DNA from: an uncultured Negativibacillus sp.
GTDB lineage: Bacteria; Bacillota; Clostridia; Oscillospirales; Ruminococcaceae
NCBI RefSeq assembly: GCF_944388365.1
Contig: NZ_CALXIN010000018.1
Span: 1 to 34,864, forward strand
Length of the DNA stretch: 34,864 nucleotides
Direction of reading: 5' to 3'
Positions 20,841-25,866 of this stretch are shown here, in pieces. Position numbers and translations under genes: made by a program. Below the pieces are notes generated by a model that saw only the letters and a list, made by a program, of their open reading frames with translations, had not been told where the DNA came from and ran no database searches. Every line of letters starts with the position of its first letter. The stretch's first letter is position 1.

Positions 20841-21362
20841 TTATTGTGCGGATTCTCCAACCCAGCTTTCACGGGTTTCCAAAACCGCCTTGTTTTGTTT
20901 CAGGCTTTGTGGAACATTGATCACACGCTGATTCCGGCTTCCGCGAAAACGCAGCTCCAGCGTCCGCTCCTCCAGCACAAACCGGCCGTCGACTAGAATG
21001 TCGATGTTTTCCAGCAGAGTTCGCTGCTCCGGCGTTCCATTCATCAGTTCCTCAAAGGTATACCCGCTGTACGACGCCACCTCATAGCCGTGCTGATGCA
21101 GCAGCTTGGCAAGCTCTGCATGTTCCAGCGGCTGTGCAAACGGCTCGCCTCCCGAGAAGGTAACTCCTCGGATCAGTGGATTTTTCTGAACCATCTCCAG
21201 AATCTCCTGAGGTTCTATCCGCTGGCGCTCCTCAAAGGCCCAGGTTTCAGGGTTCTGACATCCAGGGCAGTGATGCGGGCATCCCTGGCAAAATACCGTC
21301 AGACGGATGCCAGGGCCATCCACAATGCTTTCACCGATGATTCCTGCTACGTTGATCTTCAT
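20841..21362 (-). CDS. nrdG: Anaerobic ribonucleoside-triphosphate reductase activating protein
   Basis: This 173-residue radical SAM enzyme generates the glycyl radical on NrdD. It has MKINVAGIIGESIVDGPGIRL followed by the cluster motif CPHHCPGC (C28, C32, C35), then TFSGGEPFAQP and DILVDGRFVLEERTLELRFRGSRNQRVINV near the end, all typical of NrdG. Its ATG follows directly after the TAA of the small glycyl-radical gene, with only a weak ribosome binding site, so translation is probably coupled to that gene. This matters because the target glycine is carried by the neighbour rather than by the large NrdD chain. Confidence 0.96.
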   Translation of the reverse strand: MKINVAGIIGESIVDGPGIRLTVFCQGCPHHCPGCQNPETWAFEERQRIEPQEILEMVQKNPLIRGVTFSGGEPFAQPLEHAELAKLLHQHGYEVASYSGYTFEELMNGTPEQRTLLENIDILVDGRFVLEERTLELRFRGSRNQRVINVPQSLKQNKAVLETRESWVGESAQ

Positions 21363-21527
21363 TTATCTGCATCCACAGGAAAGACCATGTTTTACGCGGT
21401 CATGCTCTTCCGCTTTCTTTGCATCGTTCCATTTGTCCATGGTTCCGACCAGGTAGCCGGTGATACGGCGGATTCTTTCAAAGCTGACATCTTTTCCTAC
21501 GGTAGACTGTTTCTGCATAGCGGACAT
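21363..21527 (-). CDS. Stand-alone NrdD glycyl-radical domain (54 residues)
   Basis: This 54-residue gene reads MSAMQKQSTVGKDV, then SFERIRRITGYLVGT, then a basic helix with KKAEEHDRVKH, and ends in CGCR. RRITGY with the following RVKH is the C-terminal glycyl-radical motif of class III ribonucleotide reductases (compare RRVCGYL and RRVKHL at the end of Escherichia coli NrdD), with G24 as the predicted radical site. The neighbouring large NrdD ends before this motif. GGAG lies nine bases before the ATG, 53 bases separate it from the nrdD stop, and the reading frames differ, so this is a separate gene and not simple readthrough. The stop abuts the nrdG start. Role is inferred: radical-bearing subunit of NrdD. 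Confidence 0.88.
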   Translation of the reverse strand: MSAMQKQSTVGKDVSFERIRRITGYLVGTMDKWNDAKKAEEHDRVKHGLSCGCR

Positions 21528-21580
21528 CGTTCATTTCTCCTTTTTATCTTTTACTTTATTTCCATTGTGATTATTTGTTT

Positions 21581-23866
21581 CTATTCAATTCCACGGAAGG
21601 TTGGAATATCTGGATACTGTTTTCTCAGCTGTGCCAGTTTTTCTGGGCTGATCGCTTCGCCGTCGCGTCTGCCGCAGCGTGGGCATACATCGCCGATAAC
21701 ACCGACATAGCCGCAGACAGGGTCGCGGTCAACCGGATGGTTGATGGAACCATAACCAATTCCTGCATCGTGCATGCAGCGGACAACCGACTCAAATGCA
21801 TCCACGTTGTTGGAGGTATCGCCGTCCAGCTCCACATAGCTGATGTGACCGGCATTGGTCAGTGCATGGTATGGAGCCTCTTTGCGGATCTTGTCAAAGG
21901 CGGAGATGTTGTACCATACCGGCACATGGAAGGAGTTGGTATAGTAATCTCGATCGGTAACACCTGGAATAATGCCGTAGCGCTTTTTGTCCATGCGGAT
22001 AAAGCGTCCCGACAGGCCTTCTGCCGGTGTTGCAAGCAGAGTGAAGTTCATCTTCATCTCCTTGCTCTTGCGGTCGCAGTAATCGCGCATGTAACCGACG
22101 ATCTCCAGACCCTTCTTCTGCATCTCCTCGCTCTCACCGTGGTGATGACCGTACAGTGCGGTCAAGGTTTCTGCCAGACCGATAAAGCCGATCGACAGTG
22201 TTCCATGTTTAAGAACCTCGCGCACCTCGTCGTTTGGTCCCAGCTTGTCGCTGTCGAGCCATACGCCCTGTCCCATCAGGAATGGGAAGTTGTATACGCG
22301 CTTGGATGCCTGAATCTCAAAGCGATCAAGCAGCTGGTTTGCAACCAGATCCAGCATTTTGTCCAGCTTCTGATAAAATGCCTTTTCATCGTGGTTGGAT
22401 TCGATAGCAAGACGCGGCAGGTTGATCGAAGTAAACGACAGATTTCCGCGTCCATAGCTGATCTCGCGGTTCGGGTCATAGACGTTGCCCATGACACGGG
22501 TACGGCAGCCCATGGTAGCTACCTCAGTTTCAGGATGACCTGGTTTATAGTACTGAAGGTTGAATGGCGCATCCAGGAAGATGTAGTTCGGGAACAATCT
22601 CTTTGCACTGACCTTGCAGGACAGTTTAAACAGATCGTAGTTCGGGTCACCTTCGTTGTAGTTAACCCCTTCCTTTACCTTAAATACATGGATCGGGAAG
22701 ATGCAGGTTTCACCGTGGCCCAGACCGGCATCGGTTGCCAGCAGGATGTTTTTGATTGCCATTCTGCCCTCTGGACTGGTATCAGTTCCGTAGTTGATCG
22801 AGCTGAATGGAGTCTGTGCGCCTGCACGGGAGTGCATGGTGTTCAGATTGTGAACAAAGCCCTCCATCGCCTGATAGGTGTCGCGATCTGCCTTTTTAAC
22901 AGCTCTGCGGCGGGCAACGCTCACCAGACGCTCTGCCTTCTCCTGTGGGATTTTATACTGCTCGCACAGTCCTTCTGCCACGGCAGCATCAAACTCTTTT
23001 GCACCCTTTTCCAGACGTGCTGTAAAGCCTGTCTTTTCCCTTGCTTCTGCCAGGATTTTGTCGATGGACTGTTTCTCATCCTCGGTATCCAAAAAGTCCT
23101 CCACGCCCTCTGTCAGCTTGTTTGCATAGGCTTTGCGGAAGGTTTTTGCAACACCCAGCGCCATTCCATAATCAAAGTTTGGAATGCTCTGACCGCCGTG
23201 CTGGTCGTTCTGGTTGGACTGAATCGCAATGGCAGCCAACGCTGCATAGCTCTGGATGCTCTGCGGTTCACGCAGGAATCCATGGCCAGTCGAAAAGCCA
23301 CCGTCGAACAGATTGATAATGTCGATCTGTGTACAGGTGGTAGTCAGCGAATAAAAATCAAAGTCGTGGATGTGGATATCGCCCTCACGATAGGCCTTTG
23401 CCTGTTCTGGTGTCAGCAGGTAAGCTTCGTTGTAAGCCTTTGCTCCTGCTGTGCCAATCTGCAGCATGCTGCCCATCGCAGTATTGCCGTCGATGTTTGC
23501 ATTATCGCGTTTGACATCGCTCTGTCTTGCATCCACCTTGGTGATTTCGTCGATGGTTTTCATCAGACTTGTATTTGCCTCGCGGATACGTGTACGGTTT
23601 GCACGGTATAAAATATACTGTTTTGCAACCTCGTCAAACCCCATGCGCATCAGTTCCTGCTCAACAATATCCTGGATCTCCTCGATCTTTGGAGGGGTAT
23701 CCTGATATGTTTCATTAAGACGTCTGGTGACCGCCTCAGCGACCGCTGCAGCTCCCTGTGGCGCCGGATGGCCAGCTGCCTCCATGGATTTTTCGATGGC
23801 TGCAAGGATCTTGCCGCCGTCAAAATCGACGATACGTCCGTCCCTCTTAATAACCTGTGTTATCAT
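21581..23866 (-). CDS. nrdD: Anaerobic ribonucleoside-triphosphate reductase, large chain lacking the glycyl-radical tail
   Basis: This 761-residue class III reductase makes deoxynucleotides from ribonucleotides without oxygen. An N-terminal ATP cone (VIKRDGRIVDFDGGKILAAI, residues 5-90) gives allosteric control. The barrel has TTTCTQIDIINLF and FSTGHGFLREP (thiyl-radical cysteine region) and ATMGCRTRVMGN (second conserved cysteine). The tail has VCGYVGVIGDVCPRCG, a zinc-type cysteine cluster, and then ends at TFRGIE. The C-terminal RxxGY glycyl-radical motif that normally follows is missing here and is encoded by the next gene. The ribosome binding site is AGAGGGG. A strong promoter with NrdR-like boxes lies upstream. 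Confidence 0.95.
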   Translation of the reverse strand: MITQVIKRDGRIVDFDGGKILAAIEKSMEAAGHPAPQGAAAVAEAVTRRLNETYQDTPPKIEEIQDIVEQELMRMGFDEVAKQYILYRANRTRIREANTSLMKTIDEITKVDARQSDVKRDNANIDGNTAMGSMLQIGTAGAKAYNEAYLLTPEQAKAYREGDIHIHDFDFYSLTTTCTQIDIINLFDGGFSTGHGFLREPQSIQSYAALAAIAIQSNQNDQHGGQSIPNFDYGMALGVAKTFRKAYANKLTEGVEDFLDTEDEKQSIDKILAEAREKTGFTARLEKGAKEFDAAVAEGLCEQYKIPQEKAERLVSVARRRAVKKADRDTYQAMEGFVHNLNTMHSRAGAQTPFSSINYGTDTSPEGRMAIKNILLATDAGLGHGETCIFPIHVFKVKEGVNYNEGDPNYDLFKLSCKVSAKRLFPNYIFLDAPFNLQYYKPGHPETEVATMGCRTRVMGNVYDPNREISYGRGNLSFTSINLPRLAIESNHDEKAFYQKLDKMLDLVANQLLDRFEIQASKRVYNFPFLMGQGVWLDSDKLGPNDEVREVLKHGTLSIGFIGLAETLTALYGHHHGESEEMQKKGLEIVGYMRDYCDRKSKEMKMNFTLLATPAEGLSGRFIRMDKKRYGIIPGVTDRDYYTNSFHVPVWYNISAFDKIRKEAPYHALTNAGHISYVELDGDTSNNVDAFESVVRCMHDAGIGYGSINHPVDRDPVCGYVGVIGDVCPRCGRRDGEAISPEKLAQLRKQYPDIPTFRGIE

Positions 23867-23968: not shown

Positions 23969-24023
23969 TATCTATACTTTGTGTCACCTCGTAAGTTATA
24001 CCACTATATCTTGGGTTTGTCAA
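23969..24023 (-). promoter_or_regulatory. nrdD promoter with paired NrdR-like boxes
   Basis: On the minus strand, TTGACA (24018-24023) and TATAAC (23995-24000) are 17 bases apart, a near-consensus promoter about 125 bases before nrdD. Two 16-base sequences resemble the NrdR box (acaCwAtATaTwGtgt): 24001-24016, which occupies almost the whole spacer, and 23969-23984, just past the start point. Their corresponding positions are 32 bases apart, about three helical turns, as is usual for NrdR box pairs. Matches are good but not perfect. Confidence 0.78.
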
Positions 24024-25282: not shown

Positions 25283-25369
25283 GCCGCTGTGGTGGAATAG
25301 GCAGACACAAGGGACTTAAAATCCCTCGGACTAACATCCGTACCGGTTCAAGTCCGGTCAGCGGCACCA
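25283..25369 (+). tRNA. tRNA-Leu(UAA), CCA encoded
   Basis: An 87-base class II tRNA. The acceptor arms GCCGCTG and CAGCGGC pair fully, the anticodon stem GGGA/TCCC encloses CTTAAAA (anticodon TAA), the variable arm is long as in leucine tRNAs, and the T loop is GTTCAAGTC-like. The 3' CCA is in the DNA. It has its own promoter and terminator. Confidence 0.97.
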
Positions 25370-25419: not shown

Positions 25420-25866
25420 GACTCCAGGCTGAGCCTGGACGCAGTTCGCGTTTTCAAACTGTGCAGAATTTCCTCTTTTCCACTCGCGCTGTTACCTATT
25501 CTTTTTTCAAATCTTTTTCTTCCGCAGGCTGAGCCTGCACCCTATTCGCGTCTTGGGTTCGTCTGACACGCAAAAGAGAGCTCGCGTTCCGACCATCATC
25601 TTTATCAAACCTTTTTCTTCCGTAAGCTGAGCCTGCACCCTATTCGCGTCTTGGCTTTGCCTGACACGCAACATAGAGCTCGCGTTCCGACCATCATCTT
25701 TATCTAACCTTTTCTTCCGCAGATTGAGCCTGCACCCTATTCGCGTCTTGGCTTCGTCTGACACGCAACAGAAAGCTCGCGTTCCAACCATCATCTTTAT
25801 CCAACCTTCTCTTCCACGAGCTGAGCCTGCACCCTATTCGCGTCCTGGTCTTATCTGACGTTAAAA
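25420..25866. repeat. Five-copy tandem repeat, unit about 97-100 bp
   Basis: The anchor word GAGCCTG recurs at 25431, 25531, 25629, 25726 and 25823, giving periods of 100, 98, 97 and 97 bases. The last four copies share nearly the whole unit, including TGCACCCTATTCGCGTC, a TCTGACACGCAA-like segment and CATCATCTTTATC; the first is degenerate. The unit carries a small hairpin (arms around TGA): CCAGGC/GCCTGG in copy one and GCAGGC/GCCTGC in copy two, a paired base change that keeps the stem. Periods are not multiples of three, so open frames through it are accidental. It fills the gap between tRNA-Leu and rnpB. Positions 25867-25997 hold nothing recognisable. Confidence 0.9.

Follow-up and report, generated by a model that had tools for sequence, protein, structure and literature searches.

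Can a class III ribonucleotide reductase whose large chain carries no glycyl radical motif work together with a 54-residue chain encoded beside it? This question was raised by the nrdD locus of the window (the whole stretch of 34,864 nucleotides analyzed here, from an uncultured Negativibacillus sp.). The answer, which we hold to be highly probable, is that the reductase is encoded as two chains that likely assemble, the small one being where NrdG is predicted to generate the radical.

Layout of the locus and correspondence with single-chain NrdD

The features of the locus, together with a palindrome upstream of it, are the following.

21581..23866, minus strand: nrdD large chain, 761 aa, comprising an ATP-cone, the catalytic barrel, the cysteine knuckle and, at its C-terminal end, the kind of tail usual in type-a split NrdDs
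21584..21661, minus strand: tail of the large chain specific to split NrdDs, following CPRCG, GEAISPEKLAQLRKQYPDIPTFRGIE
21528..21580, minus strand: intergenic gap of 53 nt with the ribosome-binding site AAGGAG, small gene in frame +2
21363..21527, minus strand: small glycyl-radical chain, 54 aa, MSAMQKQSTVGKDVSFERIRRITGYLVGTMDKWNDAKKAEEHDRVKHGLSCGCR, matching PF13597 532-562
20841..21362, minus strand: nrdG, anaerobic RNR activase, 173 aa, TIGR02491 139.6 bits against a cut-off of 126.1
24001..24016, strand undefined: weak NrdR-box-like palindrome upstream of nrdD, two mismatches to the consensus

An earlier note on this DNA had described a 761-residue NrdD that ends behind its cysteine cluster without RxxGY and, 53 nt downstream of it, a distinct gene for 54 residues that lies in a different frame and has its own Shine-Dalgarno site. 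Both descriptions are correct: the large chain ends in ...CGYVGVIGDVCPRCGRRDGEAISPEKLAQLRKQYPDIPTFRGIE and has no RxxGY motif, and AAGGAG sits 9 nt ahead of the ATG of the small gene, which lies in frame +2. The TAA of the small gene is immediately followed by the ATG of nrdG, the next gene of the operon. Measured against that consensus, the palindrome at 24001..24016 did not rise above chance; an nrdR gene was found in the window genome. The window also holds a tandem repeat at 25503-25848 (unit 97 nt, 3.5 copies), with a tRNA-Leu gene nearby at 25283-25369.

The two chains complement each other along the Pfam NRDD profile (PF13597), residues 121-735 of the large chain covering profile positions 1-531 of 562 (E 1.4e-185) and the small chain positions 532-562 (E 7.2e-9). 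The large chain further carries the ATP-cone PF03477 at residues 4-92 (E 8.9e-23) and exceeds the cut-off of NF005497 with 1093 bits. As expected of a class III NrdD, it possesses the active-site cysteines, the formate-type Asn and a catalytic domain with ATP-cone, and a dedicated NrdG is encoded nearby; the glycyl radical motif, which should lie in the same chain, is found on the 54-residue gene instead. When aligned with the structure of Prevotella copri NrdD (8p23), the large chain spans chain residues 5-246 and 282-705 and the small chain residues 707-738, so that the break falls inside the glycyl radical domain. The proposal in the earlier note that the glycyl-radical domain is encoded by a separate gene is right for the glycyl loop and the C-terminal tail, whereas the 8p23 alignments leave the cysteine knuckle on the large chain.

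In the small chain, the counterpart of P. copri Gly711 (numbered as in passages of PMC11226230) is Gly24 of RRITGY, a pairing that assumes four extra residues in the 8p23 chain (743 vs 739), and we infer from this alignment that Gly24 is the radical glycine. Cys178, Cys454 and Asn475 of the large chain align with P. copri Cys171, Cys416 and Asn435, and these three residues, as well as Glu616, are invariant in a 58-row alignment (A3). At residue 715 the large chain has Asp where P. copri NrdD has a knuckle cysteine; this Asp occurs throughout the 58 rows of A3, also in the intact NrdDs, and the metal ligand set of the knuckle may differ from that of P. copri accordingly.

Recurrence of the split and the reductases of the window genome

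A full-row census covered 76 family genomes, 70 of which gave a PF13597 match. NrdD without the glycyl loop (GRD-less) was encoded in 26 of these 70 NrdD-bearing genomes, and a stand-alone glycyl piece accompanied it in 25 of the 26, directly downstream in 19 and on another contig in six (G015, G030, G035, G049, G065 and G071); the single genome lacking such a piece, G016, is 55% complete. Two of the 26 (G020 and G065) encode a GRD-bearing NrdD in addition. GRD-bearing NrdD only was found in 43 genomes, three of them with the gene broken over frames or contigs, and the remaining one (G072) contributed a weak N-terminal NrdD fragment only. A stand-alone glycyl piece occurred in nine of the 43, the matches of one (G056) falling under the family cut-off; in another, G057 (C417:1323-3440), an intact NrdD is followed by a second glycyl piece in the same frame.

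The search that the earlier note had called for, i.e., for NrdDs lacking RxxGY with a small gene next door, yielded 62 cis loci, and this arrangement accounts for the 19 of 26 GRD-less genomes in the census. The collected loci comprise 57 cis type-a, five cis type-b (whose piece is longer, see below), seven truncated without a neighbouring piece and 48 intact, with four intact loci added later. At one locus (L035:2919-3553), two tandem type-a glycyl genes stand behind one GRD-less NrdD. Within the genus set of six genomes, the window genome has the split nrdD only; in the sister species G145 intact and split nrdD coexist; G038 and G623 combine an intact NrdD with a stand-alone piece (93 residues in G038, 92 in G623); G624 (77% complete) has an intact NrdD; and G625 (87% complete) gave no PF13597 match. 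Further stand-alone glycyl pieces emerged from tblastn surveys of the class and the phylum. In another class of the phylum, a GRD-less NrdD of 686 residues is followed by a 101-residue piece and then by an NrdG-like gene (L190:784-3690), which is probably an independent split. A protein search with the 54-mer retrieved at least 7987 relatives of similar length among 7999 scored; where named among the matches listed, such short relatives carry either the name of the reductase itself or the label hypothetical.

In the window genome, the PF13597 search returned the two split pieces only, and PF02867, the barrel of class I and II reductases, gave no match there while matching in 11 of 14 control genomes. 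Since the genome is a draft of 169 contigs with 95.16% completeness, an intact NrdD or another reductase may have been missed. Even so, a second intact NrdD with its own glycine, which the earlier note had named as evidence against its reading, was not found by PF13597 in this assembly. Because its large chain is encoded without a glycyl motif, the small chain looks obligate rather than spare.

It could nevertheless be supposed that the small protein is a GrcA-like spare part mending an oxygen-cleaved NrdD, with an intact NrdD elsewhere acting as the main enzyme. The nine of 43 family genomes that add a stand-alone piece to a GRD-bearing NrdD favor such a role, as does the coexistence of intact and split genes in the same-genus genome G145. 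For the window we consider it improbable: neither a second NrdD nor a PF02867 gene was found in its genome, the NrdD at hand itself lacks the glycine motif, and a stand-alone piece accompanies the NrdD in 25 of the 26 GRD-less genomes.

Compared with the same-genus copy in G145 (L156), the large chain is identical at 698 of 761 residues and the small chain at 52 of 54, and dN/dS amounts to about 0.05 and about 0.014, respectively, which points to strong purifying selection on both genes. This selection, the intact catalytic residues and the failure of PF02867 to match (against the 11 of 14 controls) make it very improbable that an undetected reductase or nucleoside salvage supplies the dNTPs, leaving the split pair as a relic or with a different role, although a draft genome at 95% leaves some room for such a source.

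The gap measures 53 nt in the window and 45 nt in L156, and the frame differs too. Across the cis loci the gap varies from 11 to 483 nt; the glycyl gene occupies frames 0, 1 and 2 at 22, 22 and 18 of the 62 loci; and a Shine-Dalgarno-like stretch precedes an in-frame start at 60 of 62, a count that accepts any in-frame start with such a stretch, the starts chosen in the gap survey having been selected for it. The layout is neither chance nor assembly error, since 62 cis loci, that of the window among them, show it with 61 distinct large chains. The fused frames that, according to the earlier note, resequencing might reveal find no counterpart in this even spread of frames.

Frameshift, read-through, pseudogene and assembly error were ruled out by the variable gaps, the even frames, dN/dS and the independent genomes, and an intron or homing endonuclease in the window locus was ruled out by the gap of only 53 nt. 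That the pieces sum to one NrdD across a short gap might still suggest that nrdD broke recently and is either without function or bridged by programmed frameshifting or read-through of the stop, an idea rendered extremely improbable by the selection on both genes, the gaps, frames and start sites just given, the six genomes with the piece on another contig and the existence of an all-split clade.

The split-specific tail, the longer glycyl piece and viral contigs

The relationships of 118 NrdD cores were estimated under LG+G4 (L131, L079 and L087 being left out), and single branches of this tree are weak grounds because the search was short. The labels intact and split require at least 16 changes on it, and for the intact label 11 changes follow from starred branches; such changes may be losses or gains. 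The window falls in a clade of 26 rows, all type-a split and with support 99*; record titles in this clade name both Oscillospiraceae and Lachnospiraceae.

Large chains of the window clade share a tail like GEAISPEKLAELRKKYPxxPxF. Of 31 further cis type-a NrdDs, a profile built from the 26 window-clade tails matched 24 at E <= 1e-3, several of them weakly and mainly over the first residues, and 17 at E <= 1e-6; the type-a tail of L120 had been mis-cut by the pattern and so could not match. At E <= 1e-3 the profile found none of 52 intact, seven trans or unpaired and five cis type-b NrdDs. Because it matches most type-a rows and no intact ones, the type-a junctions probably share ancestry. On this sequence evidence the tail probably has some function, and we infer that it is a candidate docking element for the small chain, replacing the covalent link in most type-a enzymes. 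Trans-split NrdDs end directly behind the knuckle, one of them (L133) keeping 'GFERIKRIR' as a vestige of FERIRRITGY. Some group with the intact NrdD of G063, whose genome has a type-b piece, and this grouping fits a route in which the spare part came first.

The type-b piece, of about 90 residues, combines the same glycyl loop with an extra N-terminal domain, and was found with truncated NrdD, with intact NrdD in the manner of a spare part, and in viral contigs. AlphaFold gives the N-terminal domain a beta-alpha-beta-beta fold at pLDDT of about 84, the loop at residues 66-79 staying below 50; no PDB fold matched this domain at E <= 0.001. PF13597 covers the loop part alone and is the sole Pfam family matched by all 31 members, other Pfam matches being weak and limited to at most four members each.

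At two type-b loci of related genomes (L073:2928-4141 and L082:2885-4141) a FUR-family gene, a rubrerythrin gene and a glycyl piece of about 94 residues stand in a row on one strand, resembling an oxidative-stress operon, and at two others (L164 and L199) a flavodiiron-type gene lies near the piece. Relatives of the Fur, rubrerythrin or flavodiiron queries occurred beside five of 35 stand-alone type-b loci against two of 119 control loci, a comparison that is suggestive only, because the queries were drawn from the same loci (which makes it partly circular), L073 and L082 are alike, one of the five (L178) matches weakly and on the opposite strand, and the control loci surround nrdD. The other 30 of 35 loci had no Fur, rubrerythrin or flavodiiron relative nearby.

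In IMG/VR, 437 stretches encode relatives, and among the best 80 of these 437 (L200-L279) a stand-alone frame of less than 180 residues was recognized by pattern in 71. We searched 20 viral contigs of 43-252 kb, picked mostly for length, over their whole extent with PF13597: 18 of the 20 carry a glycyl piece and no NrdD (in two of these 18 the matches fall below the family cut-off), an absence that is no proof, because the records may be fragments. L210, L211, L241 and L244 are examples of such contigs in which the piece has the N-terminal domain. The other two (L227:2175-4745 and L240:2134-5280) encode a short GRD-less NrdD that measures 606 or 623 residues and has no ATP-cone; in both, the start of the type-b piece coincides with the NrdD stop or lies just ahead of it, and a candidate for NrdG adjoins, that of L227 matching Fer4_12 and Radical_SAM. 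Six of eight neighbour proteins tested on viral contigs match PHROG families, including RNA polymerase and clamp-loader, and two match none. Among 50,697 phage records, 14 matched the 54-mer.

A phage-borne NrdD piece has a precedent in kind, since T4 carries a spare-part protein for pyruvate formate-lyase (PFL), according to passages of PMC8683613. Jug phages have a fragmented nrdD in 95 of 104 cases, with up to four fragments, and one fragment of 91 residues has no evidence of splicing ahead of it (passages of PMC12363816). This fragment is about as long as the type-b glycyl piece, a likeness by length alone.

Assembly of the two chains, precedents and meaning

How, then, might the two chains cooperate? 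Judging from sequence and alignment, the large NrdD and the 54-residue chain would assemble into a working enzyme, the small chain inserting its RRITGY into the barrel beside Cys454 like the loop of an intact NrdD. NrdG would abstract a hydrogen to leave a glycyl radical at Gly24, and the radical would move from there to Cys454 and start formate-dependent reduction. The radical subunit may be exchangeable: were oxygen to cleave the small chain at the radical, 54 residues would have to be replaced instead of about 815.

Docking was modeled on L156, whose two genes share one frame, by reading through the stops and folding the product as one chain with AlphaFold, from an alignment of 58 rows, half of them without the glycyl loop. 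The body folded confidently; the small part reached a pLDDT of only 28-46, and docking is therefore not predicted; structure-alignment rows reaching residues above 756 of this fold, which rest on its unreliable part, were set aside. The two-chain reading of the earlier note is supported insofar as neither an intact second gene nor fused frames turned up, whereas its docking gained no support from the read-through fold. In passages of PMC11226230 the glycyl domain of P. copri NrdD is described as mobile, and as disordered with dATP, which makes a detachable version plausible. Passages of PMC12662201 on Streptococcus thermophilus NrdD report that the cone leaves the position of the glycyl domain unaffected, which counts against the argument from mobility, and state that activation is said to involve the domain flipping out.

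The two-chain enzyme may be compared with several known systems. It differs from the single-chain formate-type NrdD (P. copri 8p23, PF13597) in that the glycyl loop and C-terminal tail form a separate gene, a new tail on the large chain would replace the covalent link, and one knuckle Cys of P. copri is Asp. With the PFL spare parts GrcA/YfiD and T4 Y06I it shares a small stand-alone glycyl-radical chain that would complete a large enzyme chain, and viral contigs carry such chains for NrdD too. At E <= 1, however, the window small chain matches PF13597 only and not the PFL family PF01228, and a partner with its own glycine, found in some relatives, was not found in the window draft genome. The GrcA analogy drawn in the earlier note thus suits relatives such as G145, where split and intact genes coexist, and those with a piece beside an intact NrdD, but not the window, whose small chain looks obligate. 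Passages of the YfiD paper (PMC8683613) treat spare parts as demonstrated only for PFL and as speculation for other enzymes.

Split class II NrdJa/NrdJb, as described in parts of PMC9669993 and PMC5704485, likewise place a C-terminal functional piece on a separate gene; there the piece is a cysteine-rich/zinc-finger domain for turnover in a class II enzyme, whereas here it is the radical motif of a class III one, and the PF02867 barrel gave no match in the window genome. Phage nrdD genes split by introns or homing endonucleases (passages of PMC3653736 and PMC12363816) resemble the locus in comprising several reading frames; the 53-nt gap of the window is too small for an intron or endonuclease gene, and its break lies at the radical loop and is found again in many bacterial genomes.

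The remark in the earlier note that a class III split lacks a detailed description agrees with our search of the open-licence literature, outside which most subscription papers lie: it turned up neither a class III enzyme split in this way in cellular bacteria nor an NrdD spare part, and passages of PMC9531940, PMC4493059, PMC3019208, PMC2795772, PMC12288474, PMC12386605 and PMC4390871 contained neither. Split reductases as such are already known; what appears to be new here is that the break lies at the radical loop, that the enzyme belongs to class III, and that the form is widespread and has relatives in viral contigs.

A broader reading, to which we give an even chance, holds that the NrdD radical loop is an interchangeable, disposable cofactor protein in many clostridia and their phages, occurring in obligate, spare (type-b) and phage-borne forms. 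A phage-borne piece would then plug into the host NrdD and keep or restart dNTP synthesis during infection, and spare-part-first evolution would explain why some NrdDs lost their own radical loop. With a natural two-chain class III enzyme, chemists could load, swap, label or mutate the radical chain independently of the catalytic one; the spare-part idea, which the passages of PMC8683613 restrict to PFL as yet, would extend to DNA synthesis; spare parts of other glycyl radical enzymes would become a directly testable question; and thousands of short proteins of anaerobes and viral contigs would gain a function.
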